Below are positions 7,368 through 31,148 of a DNA stretch of 64,000 nt, in pieces. The notes under the pieces were generated by a model. That model had not been told where the DNA came from and ran no database searches. It saw nothing but the letters and a program-made list of their open reading frames with translations. The translations under genes and the position numbers were made by a program. The DNA comes from Chloroflexi bacterium HGW-Chloroflexi-4 (GTDB taxonomy: Bacteria > Chloroflexota > Anaerolineae > Anaerolineales > Anaerolineaceae). Each line of letters begins with the position of its first letter. Within the stretch, counting starts at the first letter, position 1. The stretch covers positions 124,001-188,000 of the forward strand of contig PHBW01000006.1 of the NCBI GenBank assembly GCA_002840715.1. The letters run 5' to 3'.

Positions 7368-7397
7368 CTGACTTTCGTCTGTAATGGAGTTTATAAT
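7368..7397 (+). promoter_or_regulatory. putative promoter of pepT
   Basis: CTGACT and a perfect TATAAT are separated by 18 bp, giving a start near 7404 and a leader of about 22 nt that includes the GGAGGT ribosome-binding site. Confidence 0.45.
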
Positions 7398-7425
7398 ACT
7401 GTTAACTCATTTCATGGAGGTATGG

Positions 7426-8652: not shown

Positions 8653-8695
8653 TTTTATGTGCTGTGAGAAATAAATTGTGAGTTTGTTAAAAAGA

Positions 8696-8742
8696 GCAAC
8701 CTTGGCAAGTTTTCAAACCTTGTCAAGGTCGCTTTGTTTTTT
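8696..8742 (+). terminator. rho-independent terminator after pepT
   Basis: GCAACCTTGGCAAG pairs with CTTGTCAAGGTCGC (with mismatches), followed by TTTGTTTTTT. Confidence 0.8.
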
Positions 8743-8779
8743 GGTTTAATTTTATGCAACTGTTTGCCGCGGCAACAAC

Positions 8780-9643: not shown

Positions 9644-9672
9644 TGAGACCTCACTCAGATCATATTTGAAAG

Positions 9673-10935: not shown

Positions 10936-11069
10936 GGTATGCACACTTTCTTGGCGAGTTAAGTTACTTCATTCTGTTGTTATTCAAACACTTTGAGGTT
11001 GGTTTAGTTTCTGGGTTAAATCAATGATGAAAAACATTTTCTTTCTTGGATAGACAGTAAATTACTGAG

Positions 11070-11099
11070 AAAAACTCCCAAATTTGGGTTTGGGAGTTT
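11070..11099 (-). terminator. terminator for the 11.1-12.6 kb membrane-protein pair
   Basis: AAACTCCCAAA pairs with TTTGGGAGTTT around a 6-nt loop. Read on the minus strand it ends in a run of T. Confidence 0.75.
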
Positions 11100-11122
11100 G
11101 ATCAGCGAAATTTCAATTTGAC

Positions 11123-11959: not shown

Positions 11960-11967
11960 ATGATTCC

Positions 11968-12627
11968 TTATTTTTTACGGTTTTTATTAACACTGCCCAA
12001 AATTATACCCAAAAATACTGAAAGACCGGCGGCAAAGATCATGCGCCATTCCGATGGCAGCATGAAGGTGATGGTGTGTGCGGGGATCCAGAAGAAGGGG
12101 ATGGTTTTGGTGAAGACGAATCCCCACATACGATCCCAGTCAATGCCTTTGAGTGCGGCTAGCATATTGAACTGCCTGAGCGGAAGACGCCCATGGTTGG
12201 CGTTGATGAAGCTGTCTGCGAGGTGGTGGGTGGTCATAAAGATAGGTGAGAAGATAAAGTTGAGGAAGAGCGAGATGGCGAAGGCGGTCAGAATGTTGTG
12301 CCAGGGTTCGGGCAGATTAGCTAGAAAAGGAAAGACCTTTGGCACACCGCCACTGAAAATACCAAAAGCCCAATAGATGATGATGCCGAAGATACCCCAG
12401 AGGAAAATTTTGGGCAGCAGTCCAAAACCTTTAAGGTTGAAGGTTTTATGTTTGATGCGCCAGGCGAGGATCTCTCCACCGGTGGCGAGGATGGCGAATT
12501 TTATGAAGGCCAGCAGCACTGGTACGGCAGAATTGGCAGAGCTGTACAGTCCGCGGGTGGTCGGGATGGCAAAGAACGCGACAATTACCAGGGTGATTAC
12601 AACGGAAATGATATCGCCAATCAGCAT
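11968..12627 (-). CDS. hypothetical polytopic membrane protein
   Basis: A 219-residue integral membrane protein with about six hydrophobic segments; family not recognised. ATG at 12627 is chosen because GGAG lies six bases upstream. A TTG four codons earlier would place the ribosome-binding site inside the gene. A conserved-looking cytoplasmic stretch FMTTHHLADSFINANHGRL lies near residue 130. The C-terminus ends in a basic tail (SVNKNRKK). It is the first gene of a two-gene unit with the 11123-11959 gene. Confidence 0.65.
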   Translation of the reverse strand: MLIGDIISVVITLVIVAFFAIPTTRGLYSSANSAVPVLLAFIKFAILATGGEILAWRIKHKTFNLKGFGLLPKIFLWGIFGIIIYWAFGIFSGGVPKVFPFLANLPEPWHNILTAFAISLFLNFIFSPIFMTTHHLADSFINANHGRLPLRQFNMLAALKGIDWDRMWGFVFTKTIPFFWIPAHTITFMLPSEWRMIFAAGLSVFLGIILGSVNKNRKK

Positions 12628-13070
12628 AGAGGGCTCCAAATGAAGGGAATGTGTTAATTATAGTGCCTATGAATAAAAATTGATCCTTAATAGGAAAATT
12701 ACGGAACACTCATAATCTAAATTCTGAAAAAACAAGGTATTCCAAAAATATAGAGGAAGTCATTCTTTCAAAGCAAGTGACGACCTAAACAAGAATTATT
12801 CTAAAATGATAAGGTGTGCGAAAAACCAGAAGTGTGGCTTAGAACCAGGTTCACGTTCCGGTGATGAGACCGAAAAAGTCAATTGTTTTACTCAAAAAAA
12901 AGGATTACAATGCAATAAATCCTTACTGTTTTAATTTTTGGGTCTTAAAGATCGGGTTTTTTCCGTAAAGCGATAATCTAATATCAGACCATTATGGAAC
13001 TTTATAGCCTGGAACTTCGTCTGAATTGTGTGCAATTGTGTATTTTATTGTCTATAGGAGATTTCTAATT
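12628..13070. other. AT-rich intergenic region, no gene seen
   Basis: A divergent spacer between the 11968-12627 membrane protein and the first NBR1-Ig lipoprotein. Both promoters should lie here. I see no convincing RNA gene, riboswitch or long hairpin. Its right end (GTGCAATTGTGTATT) resembles the sequence in front of the paralogous lipoprotein at 15429 (GTGTAATTGTGCATT), so the two genes may share regulation. Confidence 0.5.
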
Positions 13071-13757
13071 ATGTTACGAAAACGAATTGTTGTTCCATCC
13101 ATTTTAATGATCATAGTCTTGCTGCTTTCGGGCTGCAACTACCAAATTCAACCCACCACACCGACCGTGGACCCTGTTGCTCTTCAAGCCACCGTGGATG
13201 CGTCTGTAGCGCAGGCAGTGTTGGCGACGGCACTCGCTCAAACCAGCACAGCAGCAGCCATGCCTACCAGCACTTTCACTGCCACGGCTACGCTTGAACC
13301 AACAGCAACAGAAACCGCGACCGCAACTTCGACGGCAACAGCCACTGCGGCAGTGGTTATTCCAACGGCCACCAATACATATGTTCCAACCGTTGCCAAA
13401 CCCACAGCCACCTCTACTCCGCTGCCATATACCTGTTCATTGGTGAGCACCTCACCTTCTGCAGGCACAAAAATGAGTGCCAATGCTGATTTTGACTCCT
13501 CATGGAAGATCAAAAATACCGGGTCAAAAGACTGGCAGGTTGGATATGTCGATCTAAGATATGTCAGTGGCACCAAGATGCAAACTTTGGCTGATGTTTT
13601 CGATGTTAACGTTGCTTTGGCTAGAGGTGCGGAACACACAATCATCATTGATATGAAAGCTCCCGGAACCGCAGGAAAGTACACTGCTTCATTTGCACTC
13701 GTGATGGAAGGAATTACAATGTGTACACTTCCTGTCAATATTGAGGTTACACCCTAG
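13071..13757 (+). CDS. NBR1-type Ig-like domain lipoprotein (copy 1)
   Basis: A 228-residue secreted lipoprotein. The signal peptide MLRKRIVVPSILMI runs into the lipobox LLSGC, so the protein is lipid-anchored at about Cys24. Residues 30-120 are a low-complexity linker rich in Thr, Ala and Pro. The C-terminal 100 residues are an Ig-like fold of the NBR1 type: WKIKNTGSKDW, DLRYVSG, DMKAPGTAGKYTASF and two Cys (TCSLVS, MCTLPV) placed for a disulfide. Such domains usually bind surfaces or partners. Start at 13071 follows GGAG. It is a close paralogue of 15429-16091. Confidence 0.85.
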   Translation: MLRKRIVVPSILMIIVLLLSGCNYQIQPTTPTVDPVALQATVDASVAQAVLATALAQTSTAAAMPTSTFTATATLEPTATETATATSTATATAAVVIPTATNTYVPTVAKPTATSTPLPYTCSLVSTSPSAGTKMSANADFDSSWKIKNTGSKDWQVGYVDLRYVSGTKMQTLADVFDVNVALARGAEHTIIIDMKAPGTAGKYTASFALVMEGITMCTLPVNIEVTP

Positions 13758-13788
13758 ATTAGAAATATTAGAATTTTTTGCTAGATCA

Positions 13789-13822
13789 ACACCCTGATTT
13801 CTACAGAAATCAGGGTGTTTTT
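13789..13822 (+). terminator. rho-independent terminator after lipoprotein copy 1
   Basis: ACACCCTGATTTCT pairs perfectly with AGAAATCAGGGTGT, followed by TTTTT. Confidence 0.88.
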
Positions 13823-13929
13823 AATGTGGTGTGATTTGGTTGTTTTGATTGTAGTAAACCTTTTTTCGAAAGATCGTTAATTAATCAGTCATCATTATTG
13901 ATATTATAAGAATGCGGATTAGATAATTA

Positions 13930-14427
13930 TTGGCCAATTTGTTACACTTTTTTGAATTAACAAGAAATGGTGATGGAGAGGTTGAAATAGCTGATTTCCT
14001 ATTACGTCCTGCTTTAGAAACAGATACGGTCAAGATACGCGACCTGATCCGCCGTGTGAAGATCAACCCATTTGATTTGAAATGGCAGCACTTTATCGTG
14101 GCTGAAACGCTTCAGAGTGTTTTTTTGGGATGCGCACAGTTAAAACATCATAAAGACGGATCTGTGGAATTGGCCTCCCTCGCTGTGGAAGAGGACTTTC
14201 GCAGAAAGGGTGTGGCGAAAGCTTTGATTGAGCAACTTTTGACTCAAAGCCCAAGACCGTTGTATCTAATGTGCCGGCCGGAGCTTGGCATTTTCTATAG
14301 GCCTTTTGGGTTTAATGCCATTGAAGCGGACGAAATGCCTCCTTATTTTCGACGCATGGTCAGATTGATAAAGGTGTTCGTCTTTTTTAGCAGGCGCGAG
14401 GGTCCTCTGATTATGCGATTGGATTAA
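13930..14427 (+). CDS. GNAT family N-acetyltransferase
   Basis: A 165-residue acetyl-CoA-dependent N-acetyltransferase; substrate unknown. Motif A is clear at about residues 90-110: VELASLAVEEDFRRKGVA, where RRKGVA binds the CoA pyrophosphate. A later YRPFGFNAIE segment matches motif B. The start is uncertain: the TTG at 13930 lacks a good ribosome-binding site, and the fold itself begins near VEIADFLLRPAL about 17 residues in. It precedes the PPOX gene by 34 bp and may be co-transcribed with it. Confidence 0.78.
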   Translation: MANLLHFFELTRNGDGEVEIADFLLRPALETDTVKIRDLIRRVKINPFDLKWQHFIVAETLQSVFLGCAQLKHHKDGSVELASLAVEEDFRRKGVAKALIEQLLTQSPRPLYLMCRPELGIFYRPFGFNAIEADEMPPYFRRMVRLIKVFVFFSRREGPLIMRLD

Positions 14428-14461
14428 AGGTGATTTACCTGACAATAGTGGAGGATGTTTA

Positions 14462-14986
14462 ATGACCGAACGAACCCCAATTGAAACCAAAAACCTTGAT
14501 ATTTATGGTCACGAAGCTCTGCCGTGGAGCAGGCCGCGTGATCTGCTGGCAGCCGGTGTCTTTTTTGGCAGACCAGCCTTTCTCGGCACGGTGCGTCCGG
14601 AGGGTATCCCGCACTCTGCCGGGATCGGCGCTATCTGGATGGAGGGTGATATCTATTTCACCAGCGGACCGGGAACACGCAAGGCACGAAACCTGGCTGA
14701 AAACCCGGCTTGCACGATCTCTGCCAAACTGGAGACGATCGATATCGTTTTTGAAGGCGAAGCAGCCCGGGTGACTGACGTGGTGATCCTTGAGAAGGTG
14801 GCTGCGATGTGCCGTGATACCGGCTGGCCGGTACATGTTGAAAAGGGTGCTTTCACCGGTCCGTTTAATGCGCCAAGCGCCGGCCCTGCGCCGTGGAATC
14901 TCTACCGTTTCACCTTTCACACTGCCATTGGCAATGCCACAACCGAACCCCACGGCGCAACAAGATGGAAGTTTGAACGGAATTAA
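14462..14986 (+). CDS. pyridoxamine 5'-phosphate oxidase-fold (PPOX) family protein
   Basis: A 174-residue split-barrel flavin/F420 or heme-binding family protein. The core FLGTVRPEGIPHSAGIGAIW, followed by IYFTSGPGTRKARNL, is typical: small strand-turn-strand, then the basic phosphate-binding TRKARN segment. The partner cofactor (FMN or F420) and the substrate cannot be set from sequence. ATG at 14462 follows GGAGG by 7 bp. It lies just after the GNAT gene and between the two paralogous lipoproteins. Confidence 0.8.
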   Translation: MTERTPIETKNLDIYGHEALPWSRPRDLLAAGVFFGRPAFLGTVRPEGIPHSAGIGAIWMEGDIYFTSGPGTRKARNLAENPACTISAKLETIDIVFEGEAARVTDVVILEKVAAMCRDTGWPVHVEKGAFTGPFNAPSAGPAPWNLYRFTFHTAIGNATTEPHGATRWKFERN

Positions 14987-17954: not shown

Positions 17955-19895
17955 TTAATGGTTACTTCCCCAAATGGGATTATCATTTACATATGAGGAG
18001 GTTATGACCGGGTAATTGTGTTCGGCAGCCCATTTGATACCTGCTTCGTCAAGAAGTTGATTGCCGCAGTTAAGGAAATCCTCCGCCATTTGCGTATCGC
18101 CATATTTGTTTAATGCTTCAATCAGCAATGGTTCTGACCCGTTTTCACCTCGTTTAATAAAATAGGCATATGCTCCGGCAATTATTTCCAGTTTTTCATC
18201 TCTATATCCGTTGATCAAGGTGTCCGCGGCGCGAGGATCGTTGAAACGCGCCAAAGCTTCGGCTGCAGCCATTTGCGCAATAGGCTCTTCAAAACTCAAA
18301 ACAGCAATAAGGGGCTCTATGGCTTGACCATCTTGAATTTCTGCAAGCGCCCGTGCAGCCTGCCTTATGACATAAGGGTCATCATCCACCAGGGCGGAAA
18401 TTAAAGGTTTCACCGACCTTGCGTCTTTAATAATTGACAGTGCATCGGCAGCAGCCATGCGAACCGCGGACCATTTGTCTTGCAGCGAAGAGATCAAGGG
18501 TTCAACGACACGTGGATCATTGAATTGAGCCAATGCCTGGGGAACCCGCTGCCGAACGTAAAAATCTTCGTCTTGTAACATTGCAATGAGCGGTTCCACT
18601 GCCCGGGGGTCTTTGATTTCGGCTAATGATAATACTGAATACTCCCTTATCCCCGCATCTTCGTTTTTCAACGCTTCAATCAGGGGGTCAACCGCCGGCA
18701 GGCCGATTTTTACCAGGCTGTTTTTAGCTTCATTTTGGATGGCCTGATTGTAGCCCTTCAAGGAGGCTATTAAAGGTTCGATCGCACGCTCATCCTTGAT
18801 CTCACCCAAAGCAATCGCAGCCCAATAATTGTAATAAAAGTCTTCATCCTGTAAAACTTTAATGAGAGGATCAATGGCTCGGGCATCTTTGATCCCACCC
18901 AGAGCTCTCACTGCATAAGCTCGTAACTCAGTATTTTCATCTTCCAGGGCCGCAACCAATGGTTCGACTGCCGGTTCTCCAATCATTACCAGCGCAGCAC
19001 ACACTGAATAGCGATCATTATAGGTTTCAAGCTTCATATATTCTATCAAGGGCTCCACAGCCCGAGAATCCTTGATCTCGCCTAGGGCGGCTACTGCCTG
19101 TGCTCGAATCTCATTATCATCATCTTTTAACGCTGAGATGATACCATCCACCGCCGGCGCACCGATCATGACCAAAGCTTGTTTCGCATATCTTTTATCA
19201 TAAGTTTCTTCAGCTAGAAAAACTTTCATCAAGGGTTCAACCGCACGCGCGTCCTTGATCTTTCCCAGGGCGATGATGGCATTTTGGCTGACAAATGGGT
19301 CGTCGGAAAACATCGCTTCGATAAGAGATTCAACCGCGCTAGGATCTCCAATTTCTCCCAGCGCTTTAGCCCCCTTCTCACCTACACTCGATTCTTTATC
19401 ATTTAAAGCAGCGATCAAAGGTCCGACCGCTCGTTTATCCTGAATCAGCCCAAGTGCTTCTACCGCATCTTCTCGAACAAATGAATATTCATCCTGCAGG
19501 GCTAAGATCAAAGGTTCAACAGCGCGGATATCTTTAATCTGACCAAGTGCCTGGGCAGCAACCCTTTTGGCGGTATAGTCACCTTGTTGAAGTGTAATAA
19601 TGAGTGGCTCGACTGCAGGGGAGCCCAACTCCACCAGCTTATCTATGATTTCATTGCGGTTGTCAATTCCACCGATTTCGATGGCATTTAGTAAAGATTC
19701 AACCATTTTCTCTGAAGAATTAGTAGTTTCAATTACTGGATTCTCAAAAATGGACTCCCCTGTAGCGATAATCGATGTGTCATTTTCAACAGGCATTTGC
19801 TGGGAACAGCCTGAGAAAAACAAGCAACAGGCGAGAAGTAATACCCCTGTAACAACGATTCTAAAATGGTTTGGTGTGTTCAGTTGAGATTTCAT
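17955..19895 (-). CDS. HEAT-repeat lipoprotein
   Basis: A 646-residue exported lipoprotein: N-terminal hydrophobic segment with lipobox FFSGC (Cys30), a short acidic linker, then about sixteen HEAT/PBS-lyase-type repeats of 31 residues from about 75 to 590. The unit is close to AVEPLIAALQDEDxxVR followed by ALGEIKDxR. Some units are paired with a variant ending VMIGAPAVD. The repeats are very regular, which suggests recent internal duplication. Such solenoids usually bind proteins; the lyase activity of phycobilisome relatives is not implied. The gene is flanked by two relic copies of another coding sequence. Confidence 0.88.
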   Translation of the reverse strand: MKSQLNTPNHFRIVVTGVLLLACCLFFSGCSQQMPVENDTSIIATGESIFENPVIETTNSSEKMVESLLNAIEIGGIDNRNEIIDKLVELGSPAVEPLIITLQQGDYTAKRVAAQALGQIKDIRAVEPLILALQDEYSFVREDAVEALGLIQDKRAVGPLIAALNDKESSVGEKGAKALGEIGDPSAVESLIEAMFSDDPFVSQNAIIALGKIKDARAVEPLMKVFLAEETYDKRYAKQALVMIGAPAVDGIISALKDDDNEIRAQAVAALGEIKDSRAVEPLIEYMKLETYNDRYSVCAALVMIGEPAVEPLVAALEDENTELRAYAVRALGGIKDARAIDPLIKVLQDEDFYYNYWAAIALGEIKDERAIEPLIASLKGYNQAIQNEAKNSLVKIGLPAVDPLIEALKNEDAGIREYSVLSLAEIKDPRAVEPLIAMLQDEDFYVRQRVPQALAQFNDPRVVEPLISSLQDKWSAVRMAAADALSIIKDARSVKPLISALVDDDPYVIRQAARALAEIQDGQAIEPLIAVLSFEEPIAQMAAAEALARFNDPRAADTLINGYRDEKLEIIAGAYAYFIKRGENGSEPLLIEALNKYGDTQMAEDFLNCGNQLLDEAGIKWAAEHNYPVITSSYVNDNPIWGSNH

Positions 19896-21752: not shown

Positions 21753-21787
21753 TTGCATATTACGCAATATAGTTGTATTATATGCAA
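21753..21787. promoter_or_regulatory. tandem 15-bp palindromic operators overlapping a promoter
   Basis: TTGCATATTACGCAA (21753-21767) and TTGTATTATATGCAA (21773-21787) are two imperfect 15-bp palindromes whose centres are 20 bp apart, two helical turns. Outer arms TTGCATAT and ATATGCAA also form a perfect inverted repeat. A promoter TTGCAT-17 bp-TATTAT fits with its -35 in the first site and its -10 in the second. This is the expected layout for repression by the adjacent IclR regulator. Confidence 0.6.
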
Positions 21788-21820
21788 AACATCACTACAA
21801 TCTATGCTAATGAGGTTCTC

Positions 21821-22570
21821 ATGACTGAAATTCAATCCCTGGCACGCGGACTCAGGATTCTCGACATTTTGGGCGAGTCGCCCAACGGTGTTTCGGTGAC
21901 GGAACTGGCCGAGCAGCTTAATCTCGACAAGGGCAGCGCCTCAAGGCTGGTGGCGACGCTTGCCAATTACGCCTACGCTGAAAAAGATCCCGTCAGCCGG
22001 CGCTATTCTTTGGGTCCGCAGGTGGTGACGCTCAGCCGCAGCCTGCTGGCCAAACTGCCGCTGCGCGACGTGGCCAAGCCCTTTTTGCGCGAGCTGATGG
22101 AAAAATCCGGGGAGTGCTCGCACGTGGGGATCCTGTCGCAAGGCAGGGTGCTCTACATTGACCAGGTTGAATCCGCGGCGTCGCTGCGGGTGAACGCCGA
22201 GGTCGGGTCGCTCTCTCCACTGCACTGCACGGCACTGGGCAAGGCCATGCTAGCCTTCGGGCGCACACCGCTGCCGCAGAAGCTGGAACGCTTCACCGAC
22301 AACACGCTCACCAGCATTGATTCGCTAAAGAAGAATCTCGAACTGGTGCGCGAGCAGGGATACGCCACAGATGACGAAGAATTCGACCTGGGGGTTCGCT
22401 GCATTGCCGCCCCGGTCTTTGACTATCGCGACAAGGTGATCGGCAGCATTGGCATCTCGGGCCCGATCACGCGCATGACGACCAAGGCCATGCCGCACTT
22501 CGCCGAACTGGTGATCAAGGTCAGCCAGGCTCTATCAGAAAAGATGCGCTTCACCGCGCACCGCACCTAG
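21821..22570 (+). CDS. IclR family transcriptional regulator
   Basis: A 249-residue regulator with an N-terminal winged helix (about 5-65: SLARGLRILDILG, GVSVTELAEQLNLDKGSASRLV) and a C-terminal IclR effector domain (about 80-249: SPLHCTALGKAMLAF, YATDDEEFDLGVRCIAAPV). The effector is probably a sugar or sugar acid of the pathway encoded downstream. ATG at 21821 has TGAGG six bases ahead; an upstream in-frame ATG at 21773 would place the second operator inside the gene. It is the first gene of the 21.8-29.3 kb operon and likely represses it through the tandem palindromes. Confidence 0.9.
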   Translation: MTEIQSLARGLRILDILGESPNGVSVTELAEQLNLDKGSASRLVATLANYAYAEKDPVSRRYSLGPQVVTLSRSLLAKLPLRDVAKPFLRELMEKSGECSHVGILSQGRVLYIDQVESAASLRVNAEVGSLSPLHCTALGKAMLAFGRTPLPQKLERFTDNTLTSIDSLKKNLELVREQGYATDDEEFDLGVRCIAAPVFDYRDKVIGSIGISGPITRMTTKAMPHFAELVIKVSQALSEKMRFTAHRT

Positions 22571-22588
22571 ACACACATTTGGAGGGAT

Positions 22589-24445
22589 ATGCCCAGACCA
22601 AGCGATGAAGCAATTCGAGCCGCGCGAGAACAGCGCGCCGCAGCCATCCAGCAAAACGGCCTGCCGCAAGGCAAGGCGGATCTGACCCTCTCTGAAGCGC
22701 TGGTGCTGGGTTTGCTCAAGCAGGGGGTGAAGGTTTTCTTAACCGTTTTCGGGCACGGCTCCACCGAAGTGGGAGAGGTTCTGCGCATTTACCAGGAGGC
22801 AGGGCTGGTTCGGGTTTACGGACTGCGCAGCGAGATTGAGGCTTCGCACGCCGCCTCCGCGCTGAGGTGGATCACCGGCGAAAAAGCGGCCGTGGTCACT
22901 TCCATTGGCCCCGGCGCCTTGCAGGCGCTGGCGGCTTCAATCATGCCCGCTTCGGATGGATTGGGGGTGTATTACCTTTTTGGTGATGAAACGACCGAGG
23001 ATGAAGGCTACAACATGCAGCAGATTCCACGCTACGAACAGGGCGGGTTTCTCAAGATGATGTCTGCCATGGGGAAGGCGTACAGCCTGCATACGCCGCT
23101 GGCGCTTTCCTCCGCTTTGCAGGCGGGGGCGGTCGCGGTAGATCATCCCTACAAACCGTCGCCTTTCTATTTACTCATGCCGATGAACACCCAGGCTGCC
23201 TGGCTGGAAGGCTTCAACCTGGATGAACTGCCCACTGCCGTTGAAACGCAGCTTTCTGCCGCCGCCGGGGACTATCAAGCCGCAGTGGAGGCGATCAGAT
23301 CCGCCAAACGAGTGCTGGTTAAGGCTGGCGGTGGGGCGGTAGGCGCAGGCGAAGAACTTATTACTTTACTTGAGCTGACGCGCGGGGTGCTGGTGCATAC
23401 CCCGATTGCCACCGGCTGCATCTCCTTTTCGCACCCGGCCAATATGGGCGTGGGTGGCAGCAAGGGGTCACTGTGCGGCAACTTCGCCATGGAGCAGGCC
23501 GATTTGCTGATTGCGGTGGGCACACGGGCGGTCTGTCAGTCTGATTGTTCGCGCACGGGTTATCCTTTGGTGAAACAAGTGATTAACATCAACTCTGACC
23601 CCGAAGATGCACTGCATTACAACCACACCCTTGCGCTAACCGGAGATGCGGCATCCACATTAAGGTTATTGAACCAGGCACTGGCGCAGCAGCCGGTCAG
23701 AAGCGATGACACCTGGCGCACCCAGTGCACAGAGCAGAAAAATCAGTGGCTGGTGCTGAAGGAAGTGCGCCGCCAGGTGCCAACCCTGCACGATGATTAT
23801 TGGCAGCGCGAAGTGCTGACCCAGCCCGCGGCGATCCTCACCGCGCTGGATTGGGCTAAAGCCAACGCCGTGGTCAGCATTTTTGACGCGGGCGATGTGC
23901 AGGCAAACGGCTTTCAAATTGTTGAGGATGAAGCGCCAGGCTTGACCATCACCGAAACCGGCGCCAGTTACATGGGTTTTGCGGTCAGTGCGCTATTGGC
24001 CACCGGCACGGCCTCCAAACCGTTTTACGGGCTGGCTTTCACCGGTGACGGTTCCTTCACCATGAATCCGCAGGTCTTGATCGACGGCGCGGAGCACGGC
24101 GCGCGCGGCTGCATTTTATTGATGGATAACGGCCGCATGGGCGCCATCAGCGGATTGCAGAATGACCAGTACCAGCGCGAGTTCGCCACAGCCAACCGTC
24201 TGCAGATTGATTACCTGGGTTGGGCGCGTGCCATCCCCGGCGTGAAGGCGCTGGACGGCGGCACGACGACCACCCAATTGATTGCGGCGCTCAACGCAGC
24301 CAGACGGCATGAAGGACTTTCGCTCATCCATGTGCAGGTCTATTACGGCGCGGATGCGCTGGGCGGCATGGGCGTTTACGGCCGCTGGAACGTGGGCAAT
24401 TGGTGCGACAAGGTTCAAGCCTTGCGTCACGAGATCGGATTATAG
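22589..24445 (+). CDS. ThDP-dependent enzyme, IolD/acetolactate synthase-like
   Basis: A 618-residue enzyme of the acetolactate synthase superfamily. The N-terminal domain carries the ThDP-activating Glu in LRSEIEASHAA (about residue 83). The C-terminal domain carries the Mg-ThDP motif GDGSFTMN (about 486) ending in DNGRMGAIS. The FGHGSTEVGEVL start recalls the FGHGN of IolD, which hydrolyses a cyclic diketone in inositol breakdown; the overall match looks distant. It follows the IclR gene by 18 bp and is first in line for substrate cleavage. Alternatives are a 2-oxoacid decarboxylase or a ligase-type carboligase. Confidence 0.75.
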   Translation: MPRPSDEAIRAAREQRAAAIQQNGLPQGKADLTLSEALVLGLLKQGVKVFLTVFGHGSTEVGEVLRIYQEAGLVRVYGLRSEIEASHAASALRWITGEKAAVVTSIGPGALQALAASIMPASDGLGVYYLFGDETTEDEGYNMQQIPRYEQGGFLKMMSAMGKAYSLHTPLALSSALQAGAVAVDHPYKPSPFYLLMPMNTQAAWLEGFNLDELPTAVETQLSAAAGDYQAAVEAIRSAKRVLVKAGGGAVGAGEELITLLELTRGVLVHTPIATGCISFSHPANMGVGGSKGSLCGNFAMEQADLLIAVGTRAVCQSDCSRTGYPLVKQVININSDPEDALHYNHTLALTGDAASTLRLLNQALAQQPVRSDDTWRTQCTEQKNQWLVLKEVRRQVPTLHDDYWQREVLTQPAAILTALDWAKANAVVSIFDAGDVQANGFQIVEDEAPGLTITETGASYMGFAVSALLATGTASKPFYGLAFTGDGSFTMNPQVLIDGAEHGARGCILLMDNGRMGAISGLQNDQYQREFATANRLQIDYLGWARAIPGVKALDGGTTTTQLIAALNAARRHEGLSLIHVQVYYGADALGGMGVYGRWNVGNWCDKVQALRHEIGL

Positions 24446-24453
24446 GAGAAGGC

Positions 24454-25293
24454 ATGATGTGTTTAACCGAAAAGCAAATCATTGCGCTTGAAGACAAGGC
24501 GCGCAGCATCCGTGCGGATAGTTTGCGCTTTATCCACACCCGCGGTGCAGGGCACCCTGGCGGGGCGCTCTCGGCGGCCGAGATTCTGGCGGTGCTTTAT
24601 TTTCACACCCTGAGGATTGATCCAAAGAATCCGTCGCTTGAGACGCGCGACCGCTTCATCCTCAGCAAGGGGCATGCCTCGGCAGCATTGTATGCTGCCC
24701 TTTCGCGGCGCGGCTATTTTGACGCGCGTGAACTGGATAATTGGGGCGAGGTGGATTGCCCGCACCAGGGGCATCCGGACCGCTTCAAAACGCCGGGCGT
24801 CGAGATGAACAGCGGCATCCTTGGGCATGGGGTGGCGGTGGGCGCCGGTCTGACGCTGGCGGCGCGCATGAGCAAGAATCCCTGCCGCACCTATGTGCTG
24901 TTGGGCGACGGTGAATGCCAGGCGGGTATCGTCTGGGAGGGTGCGGCGACGGCGGCCAAATATCACCTCAACAGCCTGGTGGCGATTGTCGATCTCAATG
25001 ATGTGCAGCTTGATGGACCCGTGCACGAGATCATGCCGATGGAGCACATGGCTGACCGCTGGAAGGCCTGCGGCTGGCAGGTGATCGAGATCAACGGACA
25101 TAACGTGAGGCAGATAGCGGAGGCTTTTGACCTGGCGCTTGAGATCCACGACAAGCCGGTGTGCGTGATTGCGCGCACCACCAAGGGTAAGGGTGTTTCG
25201 TTCATGGAAAATGACTCCAACTGGCATGGCAATGTGCCCAATGCGGAGCAGCTTAAGCAGGCGCTGCACGAACTCGGCGCGGAGGTGAACTGA
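24454..25293 (+). CDS. transketolase, N-terminal subunit (split enzyme)
   Basis: A 279-residue ThDP-binding half of a two-subunit transketolase. FIHTRGAGHPGGALSAAEIL (about 25-45) and the cofactor motif GDGECQAGIVWEGA ending in VDLNDVQLDG (about 150-190) are present. ATG at 24454 follows AGGAG, which itself overlaps the previous stop. The stop overlaps the start of the C-terminal half (TGATG), so the two are made in equal amount. Split transketolases in catabolic operons often act on unusual sugar phosphates, such as apulose-4-phosphate (AptAB) or sulfofructose (SqwGH), rather than in the central pathway. Confidence 0.9.
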   Translation: MMCLTEKQIIALEDKARSIRADSLRFIHTRGAGHPGGALSAAEILAVLYFHTLRIDPKNPSLETRDRFILSKGHASAALYAALSRRGYFDARELDNWGEVDCPHQGHPDRFKTPGVEMNSGILGHGVAVGAGLTLAARMSKNPCRTYVLLGDGECQAGIVWEGAATAAKYHLNSLVAIVDLNDVQLDGPVHEIMPMEHMADRWKACGWQVIEINGHNVRQIAEAFDLALEIHDKPVCVIARTTKGKGVSFMENDSNWHGNVPNAEQLKQALHELGAEVN

Positions 25294-26231
25294 TGGGCGA
25301 ACTTTCAATGCGTGAAAGCTACGGCAGGGCGCTGGCAGACTATGCGGCGCTCAATCCCAAGGTGGTGGCCGTGGATGTGGATACCTCCATGTCAACCTTG
25401 ACCCACTTCTTCGCGGCCAAATACCCCGAACGCTTTTTCAACGTGGGTATCGCCGAACCCTGCGCCGTGGATGTGGGCGCCGGGCTGGCGCTGGGCGGCT
25501 ACATTCCCTTTGTGAACGCGTTTGCGGCGCTGCTGGCGCTGCGCTCGCTGGAGCAAATCCGCACCTGCGTTTGCTACACGCGAACCAACGTTAAAATCGC
25601 GGCCAGCTACGCCGGCATCTCAGACTTCAAAGATGGTCCGACCCATTTCGCGGTGACAGATATCGCCAATGTGAGGGCGCTGCCCAACATGACGGTGATC
25701 GTACCGGCGGACGCCAACGAGGCGGCGCAGTTCGTGCCGCTGGTGGCCGAGTATGAAGGCCCGGTTTACCTGCGCATCAGCAGAGGCAACACGCTGCCGG
25801 TGCACACTTTGGGCGCGCCGCTGCAGATTGGCAAGGGCATTCTGCGGCGCGAGGGCGGGGATGTGACGCTGGTGGCAACCGGCTCGATGGTCGGACGCTC
25901 ACTGCAAGCCGCGGAGTTATTGGCTGCGCAAGGTGTAAACGCCCGCGTGGTTGAGATCCACACCATCAAACCGCTGGATGTTGACCTGTTGGTGGAATCT
26001 GCAAAGCTGACAGGCGCGCTGGTGACGGTGGAGGAACACGCCAAAATTGGCGGGCTGGGCAGCGCGGTGGCTGAAGCGCTGGCCGAGATCCACCCCGTGC
26101 CAATGCAGCGGGTGGGGCTGGCAGATGAATTTTGCGTCACCGGGCGCACAGTTGAAGGTCTGTTGGATCATTCCGGTTTGGCGGTGGCGGATATTGTCAG
26201 CGCCGTACAGCAGGTTTTGAAACGCAAGTAG
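25293..26231 (+). CDS. transketolase, C-terminal subunit (split enzyme)
   Basis: A 312-residue subunit with the pyrimidine-binding domain (about 1-165) and the C-terminal transketolase domain (about 180-312). The cofactor-activating Glu is in FFNVGIAEPCAVDVGAG (about 58). DFKDGPTHFAVTDIANVRAL corresponds to DGPTHQ of standard transketolases, with Phe in place of the usual Gln after His. Start overlaps the partner's stop by one base. Together with 24454-25293 it would move a two-carbon ketol unit. Confidence 0.9.
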   Translation: MGELSMRESYGRALADYAALNPKVVAVDVDTSMSTLTHFFAAKYPERFFNVGIAEPCAVDVGAGLALGGYIPFVNAFAALLALRSLEQIRTCVCYTRTNVKIAASYAGISDFKDGPTHFAVTDIANVRALPNMTVIVPADANEAAQFVPLVAEYEGPVYLRISRGNTLPVHTLGAPLQIGKGILRREGGDVTLVATGSMVGRSLQAAELLAAQGVNARVVEIHTIKPLDVDLLVESAKLTGALVTVEEHAKIGGLGSAVAEALAEIHPVPMQRVGLADEFCVTGRTVEGLLDHSGLAVADIVSAVQQVLKRK

Positions 26232-26243
26232 AAGGAGATCAAC

Positions 26244-26867
26244 ATGCGTGTAGCAGTAATTAATGAAACAAGTGCGGCGGCCAAAAACGCAGATATTCTG
26301 AAGGCGCTCGAAGGCCGCGGATTGAAAGTGTTCAACCTGGGCAACACTGGCGTGGAGGGTGAAGCGCCGCTGCAGTACATCCACACCGGGTTGATGAGCG
26401 CGCTGTTATTGCACCTGGGCGCGGTGGATTTCGTGGTAGGCGGCTGCGGCACCGGGCTGGGCTACCTCAACTCGGTTTTGCAGTACCCGGGTGTGTCGTG
26501 CGGGCATATTCTCTCGCCGTTGGACGCCTGGTTGTTTGCGCGCATCAATGCGGGTAACTGCGTCTCGCTGGCCTTGAATCAGGGCTATGGCTGGGCAGGG
26601 GATGTCAACTTGAAGATGATCTTCGACGCGCTCTTCACCCCCGAAACCGCGAGCGGATACCCTGCCCACAGGGCAGAACCGCAGCGCAATTCGCGCGAGA
26701 TGCTCAAGCAGATCTCAACGCTGACGCACCGTCCGTTTGTTGAAATTCTCAAATCCCTGCCGGCAGAAGTGACCCAGCCGGCGTTGTGCTATCCCGCTTT
26801 CAGACCGGTGGCTTTCGCGGCTGCCGGAAAAGAACCTGAACTCCTGACCGTACTCAATCAAATTTAG
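26244..26867 (+). CDS. RpiB/LacA/LacB family sugar-phosphate isomerase, long form
   Basis: A 207-residue relative of ribose-5-phosphate isomerase B. The family core is visible: ADxx-like DFVVGGCGTGLGYLNSVL (about 70-90) with the catalytic-type Cys, and the later NAGNCVSLALNQGYGWAG. RpiB proteins are usually about 150 residues. This one has an extra C-terminal region of about 55 residues (RPFVEILKSLPAEV onward), as in some specialised isomerases. It probably interconverts an aldose- and ketose-phosphate made or used by the transketolase. AAGGAG precedes the ATG. Confidence 0.8.
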   Translation: MRVAVINETSAAAKNADILKALEGRGLKVFNLGNTGVEGEAPLQYIHTGLMSALLLHLGAVDFVVGGCGTGLGYLNSVLQYPGVSCGHILSPLDAWLFARINAGNCVSLALNQGYGWAGDVNLKMIFDALFTPETASGYPAHRAEPQRNSREMLKQISTLTHRPFVEILKSLPAEVTQPALCYPAFRPVAFAAAGKEPELLTVLNQI

Positions 26868-26885
26868 CCGCAAAGGGAGGGTGTC

Positions 26886-28259
26886 ATGTCTGTCTCAAGC
26901 ACTGTGCAAAAAATGAAGGCGCGTACCAAATGGCTTTATGGCCTCGGCGATATCGGTAATGCCACAGTCAATTCGGCCATCCAGTTCTTCTTGATGAAGT
27001 TCTATACCGATGCGGCATTGATCCTGCCGGCGCTGGCTGGCAACGCGCTGTTGATCGGTAAGATCTGGGACGCCGTCAACGATCCGCTGTTCGGATGGCT
27101 GACCGACAGCACGAAATCCAAGCTGGGCAAGCGGCGCGTGTATATGCTTTTTGGCGCCATCCCGCTGGGGATTTCGATTGCGCTGTTGTGGTTTGTCCCG
27201 GCCGGCATGAGTCAGGTGTTGACCTTTGTGTGGATCGCAGGCACTTTCATCCTTTTTGACACCTTGTGGACCATGACCAACGTGCCCTATTATGCGCTGA
27301 CATCGGAGCTGACCGACGATTATGACGAGCGCAGCAGCTTGACGGTTTACCGCATGGTGTTGGCCGTGCCGTTTTACCTGGTGGGTGCAGCGCTGACCCC
27401 CATGATCGTGGGCTTTTTTGCCGTGCAGCGCACCGGTTTTGGTTTTGTTGGCATTATTTACGGTGCATTAGCAGCCGCAGCTTTAATGATCTCGGCTGGC
27501 GGATTGCGCGAACGCAAGAACGTGATCGAAGCCAAGGGTGAAGAAAACCCTGGTAAATCGCTCAAACTGGCGTTTGCCAACAAGAAATTCGTCTATTTAT
27601 GCGTGATCTACTTTATTGTCAATATTTCCTTTGCGTTTGCCAAGACCCTGATGGCTTATTTTATTGAGTATCAACTGCTGATGAAAGACCTGATTTCGGT
27701 GGCGATGGGCTTAATGCTGGTGTGCGTGACCATCTCACTGCCGATTTGGAAGAAAATCGCCGAGAAATGGGATAAAGGACCTGCTTACGGCGTGGGTATG
27801 GGCATGGGTGCGGTGGCGCTGCTGGGGCTGTTCTTTTTGCCGCACGCGCCAACCTTCTGGATCTATCCGATCATGGTGCTGGCAGGGTTCGGGTTCGGCG
27901 CCAACTGGGTCTTCCCGTGGGCAATGATCGCGGATGTCTCGGATTATGACCGGGTCGAGACGGGTCAGTTCCGCAGCGGCATATATTATGGCGTGTGGGG
28001 GCTGGCGACCAAAATATCCGAGGCGCTGGCGCTGGCCGGTGTGGGCTGGATGTTAACCGGTTTCGGCTACGTCGCCAATGTGGAGCAGAGTGCCCAGTCC
28101 CTTTTGGGCATCCGGCTTTTCTTCGCAATTGTGCCCGCGGTGTGCATCCTGGCAGCTTTGCCGCTTTTGTTCAAGTATCCCATCACACGCAAGGGGCACG
28201 CCGAGGTGAGAGCCAGGCTTGAGCAGATGGATGCAGAACTTGCAGAAAGAAAAGGCTAA
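26886..28259 (+). CDS. GPH (MelB-like) sugar:cation symporter
   Basis: A 457-residue MFS transporter of the glycoside-pentoside-hexuronide group with twelve helices. KWLYGLGDIGNATVNS at the start, KIWDAVNDPLFGWLTD (cation-binding Asp pair, about 60-75) and LTSELTDDYDERSSLTVYR in the middle are characteristic. It should import the operon's substrate with Na+ or H+. GGAGGG precedes the ATG; 2 bp separate it from the dehydrogenase gene. Substrate could be a free sugar, a glycoside, a uronate or a cyclitol. Confidence 0.88.
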   Translation: MSVSSTVQKMKARTKWLYGLGDIGNATVNSAIQFFLMKFYTDAALILPALAGNALLIGKIWDAVNDPLFGWLTDSTKSKLGKRRVYMLFGAIPLGISIALLWFVPAGMSQVLTFVWIAGTFILFDTLWTMTNVPYYALTSELTDDYDERSSLTVYRMVLAVPFYLVGAALTPMIVGFFAVQRTGFGFVGIIYGALAAAALMISAGGLRERKNVIEAKGEENPGKSLKLAFANKKFVYLCVIYFIVNISFAFAKTLMAYFIEYQLLMKDLISVAMGLMLVCVTISLPIWKKIAEKWDKGPAYGVGMGMGAVALLGLFFLPHAPTFWIYPIMVLAGFGFGANWVFPWAMIADVSDYDRVETGQFRSGIYYGVWGLATKISEALALAGVGWMLTGFGYVANVEQSAQSLLGIRLFFAIVPAVCILAALPLLFKYPITRKGHAEVRARLEQMDAELAERKG

Positions 28260-28261
28260 GT

Positions 28262-29344
28262 ATGAGCAAACCCATCCGTGTGGCGATTGTGGGCTGCGGC
28301 AGAATTGCCGACCTGCACCAATTGGGTTACCGCGACAACCCTGATGCGGAATTAGCGGCGGTGTGCGACACCAACAAGGCGACGGCCAAAAAGCGCGCTA
28401 AAGAATGGGGCGTGGCCAAGGTTTACTCTGATTATCAGCAGGTGCTGGAAGATAAAGACATTGATGTAGTCGAACTACTGACGCCGCATCATCTGCACTG
28501 CCCGATGACGATTGACGCCTGCGCGGCAGGCAAGCACGTCTCCGTGCAGAAACCGATGGCGCTTTCAGCGGCCGAGGCGGACCAGATGATCGGGGCGGCG
28601 CAGCGGGCTGGCGTGATCCTGCGCGTGTATGAGAATTTCGTCTATTACGCGCCAGCGGTGAAGGCCAAACAAATGATCGAGGCAGGCGAGATCGGCGAAA
28701 TCCGCGCGGTGAGGATGCACGTGTCTACCGGTAATTCAGCCAGTGCGTGGAAGGTGCCGCTCTCAGCCTGGTTGTGGCGTTTCAATGAAAAGCAGTGCGG
28801 CGGCGGGCCGCTGGTGTTTGATCACGGCTTCCATCTGTTCTCGCTGGGTTATTACCTGGGCGGACCCGTTGAAAAGGTGTTCGCCTGGATTGACAAGACG
28901 CCGGTCAAGGAAGCCGGAAACCTGGTACAGATCGACGCGCCGGCCATGATCATGTTCAAGTACAAGGCGCCGCGCTGCTACGGCAACCTGGATATCGAGT
29001 ACACACCCAAGATGCACGTGGATTCGCAGTATTACGCCGACGACGATCGCATTGAGGTGATTGGCGAAAAAGGTATTTTGTTCATCAACCGCTACACGGC
29101 TAAAACCATTGACCTGCCCGAGTTGATGTTGTTCAAAGATGGCAAGACCACGCCCGTCCACGTAGAGGGTGTGGAGTGGCATGACAGTTTCATCGCGGCC
29201 ACGCGCGACATGGTGCAGATGATGAAGACCGGCCGCCAACCGCGGCTCGACGGTCCCACCGGCAAGGCGGTGCTGCAGTTTACGCTGGCGGCGCTGCAAT
29301 CCTCCGAGACGGGTAAAGAGGTGAGACCGGAGGATGTGGGGTAG
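28262..29344 (+). CDS. Gfo/Idh/MocA family NAD(P)-dependent dehydrogenase
   Basis: A 360-residue oxidoreductase. The Rossmann motif is VGCGRIADLHQLGY (about 10-22). The substrate Lys sits in VQKPMAL (about residue 94), where the family usually has EKP. VFDHGFHLFSLGYYLGG (about 185-200) gives the conserved Asp and His of the catalytic site. Inositol dehydrogenases belong to this family, which fits a ring oxidation ahead of the IolD-like enzyme. Sugar oxidation is equally possible. It is the last gene of the operon and is followed by several hairpins. Confidence 0.88.
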   Translation: MSKPIRVAIVGCGRIADLHQLGYRDNPDAELAAVCDTNKATAKKRAKEWGVAKVYSDYQQVLEDKDIDVVELLTPHHLHCPMTIDACAAGKHVSVQKPMALSAAEADQMIGAAQRAGVILRVYENFVYYAPAVKAKQMIEAGEIGEIRAVRMHVSTGNSASAWKVPLSAWLWRFNEKQCGGGPLVFDHGFHLFSLGYYLGGPVEKVFAWIDKTPVKEAGNLVQIDAPAMIMFKYKAPRCYGNLDIEYTPKMHVDSQYYADDDRIEVIGEKGILFINRYTAKTIDLPELMLFKDGKTTPVHVEGVEWHDSFIAATRDMVQMMKTGRQPRLDGPTGKAVLQFTLAALQSSETGKEVRPEDVG

Positions 29345-29356
29345 AGTAGGAAGAAT

Positions 29357-29388
29357 ATCCCGGGGATTTGCTCTTGAATCCCCGGGAT
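29357..29388 (+). terminator. terminator hairpin 1 after the sugar operon
   Basis: ATCCCGGGGATT pairs perfectly with AATCCCCGGGAT around an 8-nt loop; the following GGGGTTGTTTGTT is only moderately T-rich. Confidence 0.75.
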
Positions 29389-29442
29389 CTGGGGTTGTTT
29401 GTTAGGATTTTTAAAGGTAACTAAGAGTAAATTTACCCCCAG

Positions 29443-29485
29443 ACACCGGGAATCTAAAAAACCAAGATTCCCGGTGTTCTCTTTA
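29443..29485 (+). terminator. terminator hairpin 2 after the sugar operon
   Basis: ACACCGGGAATCT pairs perfectly over 13 bp with AGATTCCCGGTGT, followed by TCTCTTT. It would back up hairpin 1. Confidence 0.75.
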
Positions 29486-29493
29486 GGTCAAGA

Positions 29494-29531
29494 CCCCCGC
29501 GGTTTTGATCCATGGAGGAAAACCGCGGGGG
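29494..29531. terminator. hairpin 3 (13-bp perfect stem, no T-tract)
   Basis: CCCCCGCGGTTTT pairs perfectly with AAAACCGCGGGGG around a 12-nt loop. The strand that ends in GGGGG lacks a T-run; the minus strand also lacks one. It shares CCCGCGGTTTTGA with the terminator at 3528-3563. Confidence 0.6.
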
Positions 29532-29573
29532 TATGTATTAAACGTGTTTGTAAATTGCTATTGATGTTTGAAT

Positions 29574-29756
29574 GGGGAGGGTCACGGACCTTCCCCGACG
29601 GATATCGGTTTGGGGCACGTTGCCCCTCACGCAAAAAAGGCTCGCCCTCAAAGAACGAGGGTCATGAGAGGCGCAAAATTCGCGTGAACCGCCTCTACGA
29701 ATTTCGGTTTGGCATAGCACGCACCCAAGTATGGGCACGGCGCGCCATGCCCGTAC
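29574..29756. repeat. highly structured intergenic element
   Basis: Five stem-loops in 183 bp: GGGGAGGGTC/GACCTTCCCC (29574-29596), GGGGCA/TGCCCC (29612-29626), CCCTC/GAGGG (29645-29661), AGAGGCG/CGCCTCT (29667-29696) and a near-perfect 28-bp palindrome centred on GGCGCGCC (29729-29756). No ORF in it resembles a protein. It looks like a REP- or MITE-like dispersed element, or a structured RNA. It ends 6 bp before the stop of the kinase gene. Confidence 0.55.
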
Positions 29757-29762
29757 AATATG

Positions 29763-31148
29763 TTATTTAATTGCCGGGGTGGGGAGGGTGATGGTGACTT
29801 CGAGGCCGCCTTCGGGGCGGTTGGCAGCCGAGATTTGGCCGCCCTGGGCTTCAATGAGCTGTTTGGAGATGGCGAGACCCAGGCCGGCGCCGCCAGAGAC
29901 GCGCGCGCGGGATTTCTCTCCGCGCCAGAAGCGGTCGAAGATGAAGGGCAGCTCGGCGACGGGCACACCCGGGCCGTTATCGCTTACCTTTACCAGGGTT
30001 GCATCATCAGTTTTGATCAGTTTCAACAAGATCACCCCGCCGGCCTGGGCGTAGCGCAGGGCGTTGCCGATGAGGTTGCCGATGACCTGCTCAAAGCGCT
30101 GCGAATCCACCAGAACGAGGGCTTCAGTTTCATCGGTCTCAAGCTCAATCTGTGCGGATTTAGCGGCCGCCTGTGGTTCAAACAGGGTGCGTGATTTGTT
30201 GAGTAATTCCACCAGGTCGGTGTCTTTGAGTTCAAAATGGAGCTGGCGGGTTTCGGCCAGAGTGAGCAGACGCAAATCTTCGACCAGTCTTTCAAGCAAA
30301 TAGGTTTCTTCAAGCACCTGGGCGATATTGACCTCATTGGGTTTATAAACGCCGTCCACAATGCCTTCGAGCCTGCCGCGCAGCACGGAGAGCGGCGTAC
30401 GCAGTTCGTGGGCGATGTCGGCCAGCATGCCTCGGCGTTCGTTGTCGTTCTTTTCGAGGGTTTCGGTCATGTGGTTGAAATGGTCGATCAGCGAGGCTAG
30501 ATCATCCTGAGACTTGCTTTTTTTGATGCGGGTCTTGAAGTTGCCTGATGACACGCTCTCGGCGGCGGCGATGACCTCAGAGAGCGGATTGACGATACGG
30601 CGCATGAGCAGAATACCGAGCAGCAAGGTGATGAGGGCACACACCAAACTGATCCATAAAATTGGGTTAAGCACATTAAAAGCGAGGCGTACCGGGTGGG
30701 GCAGGTCGCGGTTATCCTGGATCATGGTGCCAACCATGCGCCCCTGCACAATAATGGGCATTTGATTCACTTCCACTGGCATTGCGAAAGAGGCTGCCGG
30801 TCTGGCTGGAACAGCCTTGCCGTAATACATGATGACATCTCCATTTTGGTCCAACAAAATGGATCTTTGTAATTCAAGGTCTGTAAATCCGGCTTGACCC
30901 CCTGCGCTGGATTGAAATACCTGATCCAACCCTCCCCAATCTCCGCGACCAAGGTAATAGGCTTCTAGAATGGTGGCGCTGGGTGATTTGTAAAATGGAT
31001 TGCGACCGGTATTGGAACTGATCTCATACAGCGTTGAACCCATCAAAACGATGATTAGAAAGGCTGTGACAATCAGAAACACCCTGATCAGCGTCCAGAC
31101 CAGGCGGCGCTTTATGGTTTTCATTGAATTGGAAGAGGGAAGGCTCAT
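29763..31148 (-). CDS. sensor histidine kinase (BaeS/PhoR-like) of the exporter locus
   Basis: A 461-residue membrane kinase. One helix near residues 15-40, an extracytoplasmic sensor to about 160, a second helix near 170-190, then HAMP (RRIVNPLSEVIAAAESV). The phosphorylated His is in DIAHELRTPLSVL (about 248). The ATP-binding domain has N-box GNLIGNALRYA, G1 VSDNGPGVP, F-box FDRFWRGEKSR and G2 GGAGLGLAIS. It follows the response regulator by 2 bp and is the last gene of the exporter operon. It probably senses the compound, or envelope stress, that the exporter deals with. Confidence 0.92.
   Translation of the reverse strand: MSLPSSNSMKTIKRRLVWTLIRVFLIVTAFLIIVLMGSTLYEISSNTGRNPFYKSPSATILEAYYLGRGDWGGLDQVFQSSAGGQAGFTDLELQRSILLDQNGDVIMYYGKAVPARPAASFAMPVEVNQMPIIVQGRMVGTMIQDNRDLPHPVRLAFNVLNPILWISLVCALITLLLGILLMRRIVNPLSEVIAAAESVSSGNFKTRIKKSKSQDDLASLIDHFNHMTETLEKNDNERRGMLADIAHELRTPLSVLRGRLEGIVDGVYKPNEVNIAQVLEETYLLERLVEDLRLLTLAETRQLHFELKDTDLVELLNKSRTLFEPQAAAKSAQIELETDETEALVLVDSQRFEQVIGNLIGNALRYAQAGGVILLKLIKTDDATLVKVSDNGPGVPVAELPFIFDRFWRGEKSRARVSGGAGLGLAISKQLIEAQGGQISAANRPEGGLEVTITLPTPAIK

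Follow-up and report, generated by a model that had tools for sequence, protein, structure and literature searches.

A probable catabolic operon of a Chloroflexi bacterium with an apparently undescribed thiamine diphosphate-dependent enzyme family and two mutually exclusive downstream modules among its relatives

A comparative analysis of a 64,000-nucleotide stretch of the genome of Chloroflexi bacterium HGW-Chloroflexi-4 (contig PHBW01000006.1, positions 124,001 to 188,000; hereafter the window) was centered on a single operon of seven genes encoding, in this order, an IclR-family regulator, a thiamine diphosphate (ThDP)-dependent enzyme, the N- and C-terminal subunits of a split transketolase (TktN and TktC), an aldose-ketose isomerase, a GPH-family symporter and a Gfo/Idh/MocA dehydrogenase. 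Across the relatives that were read, the ThDP enzyme is mostly accompanied either by an isomerase of the DhuI type, as in the window, or by a dehydratase of the IlvD type, and these two downstream modules are mutually exclusive and repeatedly swapped. The operon is tentatively interpreted, with slightly less than even confidence, as a catabolic one for a sugar-like compound, in which both modules would consume the same C5 semialdehyde via two different exits, all of the metabolites named below being predicted ones.

When GTDB genomes were scanned with five members of the ThDP family, 356 candidate loci were obtained (tblastn, E ≤ 1e-3); the best 80 of these (52–71% identity) were read, and a plasmid search added seven records with a family member (four inspected, one stretch without annotation); the annotated plasmid records seen describe the protein just as a “thiamine pyrophosphate-dependent enzyme.” Upon omission of duplicate or partial loci (L001, L004–L010) and of L016, where the ThDP frame is split, 84 rows including the window were retained in the ThDP tree. 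Within the stretches fetched for these rows, to which all statements on module absence refer and which end at contig ends, the IlvD-type dehydratase is present in 39 and the DhuI-type isomerase in 19 (window included), while no row has both and 26 have neither. The split transketolase accompanies the isomerase in 15 of the 19 DhuI rows. The same division is observed for the 39 rows in which a dehydrogenase could be typed in addition to a module: it is of the succinate-semialdehyde dehydrogenase (SSADH) type in 31 IlvD rows and of the methylmalonate-semialdehyde dehydrogenase (MMSDH) type in eight DhuI rows, and no crossed combination occurs. The MMSDH gene of L017 lies divergent from its operon, and both MMSDH-type proteins that were scanned (from L038 and L025) pass the cut-off of 448.5 bits, with 503 and 490 bits, respectively. 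At the level of whole genomes, a DhuI homologue (E ≤ 1e-10) was detected in 4 of 4 DhuI-type vs. 0 of 18 IlvD-type genomes.

Mapping of the modules onto phylogenies (quick trees with SH-aLRT supports only and some long rows) revealed 8–9 module changes in the ThDP tree, at least five of them forced by supported branches, and at least four changes in the Gfo tree, in which one supported clade (98) comprises 35 rows, 17 of them IlvD and 13 DhuI. The module labels are also clustered on the trees, with a value as low in none of 500 shuffles; being clustered yet changing repeatedly, a module appears to be passed on by descent in most cases and exchanged now and then. The clearest swap is provided by L013, which combines a window-like IclR regulator (64% identity), operator boxes, ThDP enzyme (68%) and Gfo dehydrogenase (79%) with a canonical dihydroxy-acid dehydratase (676 bits, ilvD cut-off 618) in place of the transketolase-isomerase block. 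The dehydratases themselves are of different kinds, e.g., a PRK06131-type protein in L074 (792 bits, cut-off 539) vs. the canonical enzyme of L013. In two of the 26 loci with neither module (L033 and L036), a dehydratase-like gene precedes the ThDP gene; the L033 protein matches arabinonate and talarate/galactarate dehydratases at 107 and 103 bits, far below cut-off.

The constant part of these operons, the ThDP enzyme, appears by its sequence to represent an undescribed family that spans many phyla and is distant kin of IolD. A preliminary description of the window had called it IolD-like, of which the distant kinship holds (153 bits against the IolD model TIGR04377) and an identity with IolD does not: the cut-off of that model is 715 bits, a supported branch (100) parts the family from six reference rows in the tree, and a true IolD (923 bits) is encoded elsewhere in the window genome (G000:C44), within an iol operon. 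On these three grounds, the assignment of the enzyme to IolD and the classical iol pathway were rejected. Five of the six reference rows score over the IolD cut-off, the remaining one (L107) being a long-branched match of 312 bits that is doubtful as IolD. Similarity to other characterized families is also low, the scores being 122 bits for the acetolactate synthase model, 71 bits for sulfoacetaldehyde acetyltransferase (cut-off 620) and at most 69 bits for solved relatives; the structure model (pLDDT 90) broadly matches the acetolactate synthase superfamily at 18–22% identity among the 50 matches listed. As a separate observation, a conserved SGNH-hydrolase-like gene (recognized by eye) stands just before the ThDP gene in L032, L044, L047, L051, L052, L054, L055 and L064, with one frame between them in L044; these loci, from Latescibacterota, Gemmatimonadota and one further genome, have neither module in their stretches.

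The isomerase likewise departs from its initial label. Described before as RpiB-type, it scores 195.6 bits against PRK09273 (cut-off 137) vs. at most 17 bits against the RpiB and LacAB/LacB models (cut-offs of at least 135), and its solved relatives (4u8e, 2ppw, 3ono and 3c5y) are matched at 146–161 bits vs. 17.7 bits for the best RpiB-type entry; RpiB was rejected by this comparison (161 vs. 18 bits). By sequence, the protein is thus assigned to the DhuI (PRK09273) family within the RpiB/LacAB superfamily, an activity on 4-deoxy-L-threo-5-hexosulose uronate (DHU) being only predicted by family. The closest solved structure, 4u8e (gbs1892, 160.7 bits), is one that we take to be the DHU isomerase DhuI. 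DhuI is reported to be encoded together with DhuD in Streptococcus agalactiae and to belong to the RpiB/LacA/LacB family (PMC12838403). Family scans found no DhuD/KduD-type reductase among the seven window genes; a KduD-like short-chain dehydrogenase/reductase is present in L080 (275 bits, cut-off 369).

The N and C halves of the transketolase are separate genes that keep the GDG motif and a Glu, which we take to be the catalytic residue, in agreement with a split transketolase, and TktC matches the split transketolase of Carboxydothermus at 299 bits. Two substitutions characterize the TktC proteins of these operons. A Lys occupies the Glu position of GEDG in 16 of 16 operon rows (two of which, L009 and L045, are apparently a single record) vs. 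0 of 29 background transketolase/DXS-type homologues, and an aromatic residue (Tyr/Phe) occupies a His position in 16 of 16 vs. 3 of 29; the background has Arg there in 14 cases, His in 11, Tyr in 3 and Leu in 1. The background rows, some of them DXS-like proteins, represent 29 of 35 places that were found, apart from the window operon, in 31 genomes of the phylum. The His in question (E. coli numbering) presumably contacts the sugar phosphate. The transketolases of L025 and L029 sit elsewhere in the tree, yet carry the same Lys, and the tree favors two origins of the operon transketolases.

The layout of the operon (Table 1) agrees with the preliminary description in the tight packing of seven genes on the plus strand and in their broad families: they lie head to tail between 21821 and 29344, separated by 18, 8, −1, 12, 18 and 2 bases. 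Its start had been placed at 21753, and a control region is indeed found at the IclR gene, 21753 being the first base of the operator rather than of the gene. The ATG starts chosen for IclR (21821) and TktN (24454) make both genes shorter than the mechanical open reading frames; the former agrees with relatives (MTEIQSLARGL), and a longer IclR frame from TTG 21773 is unlikely, starting inside the operator. A search for this neighborhood in other genomes, as had been suggested, recovered the identical seven genes in identical order in 5 of 80 fetched loci (L011, L012, L014, L015 and L017). Family scans of the seven window genes detected no kinase and none of the classical partners IolE, IolB, IolC and IolJ, as had been noted already from the sequence. 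The G+C content is 0.56–0.61 in the four 2-kb blocks of the operon (22001–30000) and 0.37–0.55 in all other blocks of the window, which looks as though the operon was acquired. Upstream of it, the minus strand (17955–19895) encodes a 646-residue protein that, read by eye, consists mostly of HEAT/PBS-lyase-like repeats after a lipoprotein-like start.

Table 1. Features of the operon and its control region (window coordinates)
Feature	Position	Strand	Comment
Tandem operator TTGCATATTACGCAA - 5 bp - TTGTATTATATGCAA	21753..21787	+	upstream of IclR gene
IclR-family regulator	21821..22570	+	start set by comparison with relatives
ThDP-dependent enzyme, acetolactate synthase / IolD superfamily, apparently undescribed family	22589..24445	+	
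Split transketolase N-terminal subunit (TktN)	24454..25293	+	
Split transketolase C-terminal subunit (TktC)	25293..26231	+	Lys replaces Glu of GEDG, Tyr at a His position
Predicted DhuI-family (PRK09273) aldose-ketose isomerase	26244..26867	+	
GPH-family sugar:cation symporter	26886..28259	+	TIGR00792
Gfo/Idh/MocA dehydrogenase	28262..29344	+	subfamily occurs with both operon types

The operator consists of two TTG-N9-CAA boxes 20 bases apart. Its 35-base pattern has one match in the window and none in 100 shuffles; since the pattern was derived from this same site, relatives are the real test of it. All six loci of the window clade (L011–L015 and L017) have boxes with a score of 10 or more out of 13 close to the start of the IclR gene, in four of them as a tandem with 20-base spacing. 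Among the more distant loci with an IclR gene (ten IclR-bearing loci were examined in all), L040 and L049 have boxes, L038 has one weak box and L030 has none. Across the 113,523 bases of the six window-clade loci, 31 boxes of this strength occur, so that a single box is weak evidence and the weight is carried by position and spacing.

The symporter is a GPH-family member (279 bits against TIGR00792, cut-off 231), and transporters differ among the relatives, with a CUT1 ABC system in L093, a TRAP system in L094 and a tripartite one in L091. The solute-binding proteins of three related operons gave general matches only (AcbH and other sugar-binding proteins, many TRAP and Bug-type proteins). With such general matches and varying types, transporters provided no substrate assignment, nor did glycosidases, those of families GH94 and GH1 near L040 and GH31 near L049 standing outside the operon. 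The Gfo dehydrogenase has IolG as its best NCBIfam match (127 bits, cut-off 355). Upstream dehydrogenases vary as well, including, in addition to Gfo, a Zn-dehydrogenase with a molybdenum hydroxylase (L080, L085, L089 and L091) and a beta-hydroxyacid dehydrogenase (L094), whose best models, those of tartronate semialdehyde reductase and L-threonate dehydrogenase, reach 145 and 137 bits, both far below cut-off; these alternatives could not be reconciled with one substrate and were set aside as a clue. The L091 variant (797–13983), shared by L079, L089, L080 and L085, joins the ThDP enzyme with a Zn-dehydrogenase resembling threonine dehydrogenase and IolM (below cut-off) and with a xanthine dehydrogenase-family molybdenum hydroxylase; the L091 operon also holds a tripartite tricarboxylate transporter.

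In the proposed pathway, the substrate would enter through the GPH symporter, the Gfo dehydrogenase would oxidize one of its secondary alcohol groups, and the ThDP enzyme would break the C–C bond beside the new ketone to release 3,4-dihydroxy-5-oxopentanoate (OHC-CHOH-CHOH-CH2-COO-). At the window exit, the DhuI-type isomerase may convert this C5 semialdehyde to the ketose CH2OH-CO-CHOH-CH2-COO-, from which the split transketolase would pass the C2 ketol group to an acceptor, e.g., to glyceraldehyde 3-phosphate with formation of xylulose 5-phosphate, and leave malonate semialdehyde; the latter would be converted to acetyl-CoA or malonyl-CoA by a CoA-acylating dehydrogenase, whose gene may adjoin the operon or lie elsewhere. 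These steps are suggested by the enzyme families, the exclusivity of the modules and parallels between operons. At the other exit, expected in most other module-bearing loci, the SSADH-type enzyme would produce 2,3-dihydroxyglutarate and the IlvD-type dehydratase would turn it into 2-oxoglutarate. As the two modules stand in for one another while the ThDP and Gfo enzymes stay the same, the same starting product is expected for both; among compounds of the form OHC-(CHOH)n-CH2-COO-, chemical reasoning leaves only n = 2 as a length with which both modules would reach central metabolites without further enzymes. The order of events proposed earlier (import, oxidation, ThDP chemistry, isomerization and C2 transfer without a kinase) is still the likeliest reading of the families, only its IolD and RpiB labels having fallen. 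The substrate might be a sugar acid of the hexuronate type, degraded by a widespread pathway that would be new, a suggestion that we consider doubtful: oxidation next to the carboxylate would give a 3-hydroxy-2-keto acid, hinted at by the matches of the L094 beta-hydroxyacid dehydrogenase, which the ThDP enzyme would decarboxylate, expelling the neighboring hydroxyl and hydrolyzing the acyl intermediate in a phosphoketolase-like manner, to leave a 2-deoxypenturonate for the two exits.

The fate of malonate semialdehyde was considered through the CoA-acylating dehydrogenases. MMSDH orthologues (61–74% identity) were found in 4 of 10 related genomes searched (L014, L017, L020, as a contig-edge fragment, and L013), and the window genome has two SauS-like genes. 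The operon of L049 ends in a CoA-acylating dehydrogenase (575.7 bits against the SauS model, cut-off 600), beside which a TauE-family gene lies on the other strand, and this dehydrogenase is 73% identical to the SauS-like one of the window genome’s iol operon. Besides IolB (over cut-off), IolD and two copies of IolG, the latter operon (L138, G000:C44:138500-156500, genes 5612–14710, minus strand) encodes a protein resembling IolE (230 bits, cut-off 290) and one of the transaldolase family (PF00923), and it ends in the SauS-like dehydrogenase and a permease of the TauE family. Neither IolC nor IolJ was recognized in this 18-kb stretch, the only part of the genome searched for them. Because malonate semialdehyde is expected in the L138 operon, the L049 dehydrogenase is tied to the same compound. 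By analogy, L138 perhaps encodes an inositol route in which the transaldolase cleaves 2-deoxy-5-ketogluconate to malonate semialdehyde, in parallel to transaldolase-dependent sulfoglycolysis. The second SauS-like gene of the window genome (L139, 7064–8449; 64% identical to that of L049) follows an aminotransferase-like gene, its neighbors having been read by eye, and perhaps serves beta-alanine, taurine or gamma-aminobutyrate.

Several observations weigh against the two-exit pathway. The window operon itself has no malonate-semialdehyde dehydrogenase, and no MMSDH orthologue was found in the window genome (86% complete), which has one 30% relative only; an MMSDH orthologue is present in the IlvD-type L013, contrary to a strict pairing of module and dehydrogenase. 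This pairing is represented by three independent phylogenetic pairs on supported branches (sign test, p = 0.25), and L013, L018 and L078 have no SSADH in their stretches. In addition, the window genome and two relatives have SauS-like genes next to an aminotransferase-like one (L139–L141), so that the SauS-like family is not specific to malonate semialdehyde. Neither module is seen in the stretches of as many as 26 of 84 ThDP rows, and four of 19 DhuI rows (L022, L058, L080 and L085) are without a transketolase; with stretches cut by contig ends, such absences are partly a matter of sampling. Finally, the approximately unbiased test does not reject a common origin of the operon transketolases (p = 0.17).

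Other substrates would account for parts of the same evidence. A cyclitol pathway via a C6 intermediate, which is unlikely in our estimate, would have the Gfo dehydrogenase form an inosose, the ThDP enzyme open its ring to 5-deoxyglucuronate, the isomerase replace IolB and the transketolase leave malate semialdehyde for conversion to malate. The order of roles indeed parallels iol, and IolD and IolG are the best NCBIfam matches of the two upstream enzymes (far below cut-off in both cases, as given above). However, the product of the IlvD module would in this case be 4-hydroxy-2-oxoadipate, which requires an aldolase, and none was recognized among the operonic neighbors (mostly read by eye, some scanned); moreover, the MMSDH and SauS-like enzymes suit malonate rather than malate semialdehyde, and the window genome already has an iol operon. 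A role in unsaturated-uronate metabolism is suggested by the aldehyde-diol-CH2 pattern that DHU shares with the proposed C5 semialdehyde. DHU is also the substrate of the DhuI family to which the isomerase is assigned (PMC12838403), and the isomerase could thus act on DHU itself, with the transketolase cleaving the diketo acid and the ThDP enzyme decarboxylating a product. We regard this scheme as quite improbable: it lacks the KduD/DhuD-type reductase among the seven genes, leaves the Gfo-type oxidation without a role and places downstream the very ThDP enzyme that is constant across both modules.

A sulfosugar pathway, with the isomerase as SqwI, the transketolase as SqwGH and sulfoacetaldehyde handled by a SauS-type dehydrogenase, is very unlikely in spite of containing the same isomerase-transketolase pair as transketolase-dependent sulfoglycolysis (PMC12890257). 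The SauS-like dehydrogenase at the end of the L049 operon and the adjoining TauE-family gene would fit it, but such genes are found also in the window genome’s inositol operon, where no sulfonate is expected, and the sulfosugar interpretation was lowered for this reason. By chemical reasoning, the IlvD module would end here in 2-oxo-4-sulfobutyrate; the ThDP enzyme is far from sulfoacetaldehyde acetyltransferase (see above), and no sulfite/sulfonate transporter family is represented among the seven window genes.

Overall, if the two-exit pathway is true, a ThDP family of many phyla gives access to a carbon source by an unrecognized route, and transketolase-dependent sulfoglycolysis has a counterpart among carboxylates. 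The exchange of the module behind a ThDP enzyme that stays constant, in many cases together with one Gfo subfamily, would then be a natural experiment narrowing a hidden intermediate to one formula. The gene set was stated from the start to match none of the inositol, sulfoquinovose and apiose pathways exactly. In searches of the open-access literature, no title or abstract opening among the matches listed describes it.

A side-by-side comparison with known systems reveals likenesses as well as differences. The DhuI/DhuD pathway shares the isomerase family with the window, which, unlike that pathway, has no DhuD/KduD and whose isomerase product would be cleaved by the transketolase rather than reduced. 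The L-arabinonate and other IlvD-EDD routes to 2-oxoglutarate resemble the alternative module, whose dehydratase is similar to L-arabinonate dehydratase (662 bits, cut-off 882) but accompanies, in the relatives, the ThDP enzyme and a dehydrogenase of the SSADH type. The iol pathway has in common with the window a Gfo dehydrogenase, an IolD-superfamily ThDP enzyme, an aldose-ketose isomerase and (as proposed for the window) malonate semialdehyde; it differs from the window operon in the four Iol partners absent from the latter and is encoded separately in the same genome (L138). A further known system is the transketolase-dependent branch of sulfoglycolysis, whose isomerase SqwI belongs to the RpiB/LacAB superfamily. 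There, SqwI and then SqwGH convert 4-deoxy-4-sulfoerythrose via 4-deoxy-4-sulfoerythrulose (SEu) to sulfoacetaldehyde (PMC12890257), and the comparison drawn in the preliminary description remains a good analogy for the isomerase and transketolase steps. The differences are the carboxylate proposed for the window, the upstream ThDP and Gfo enzymes and the alternative IlvD module of relatives. As to SqvD, SqwF and SqwD, general family scans (with no Sqw model among them) found no alcohol- or aldehyde-dehydrogenase family among the seven window genes. In both systems, the isomerase and the transketolase would act on unphosphorylated, acid-bearing sugars in mutually isosteric steps, the proposed C5 compound being the carboxylate isostere of 4-deoxy-4-sulfoerythrose.

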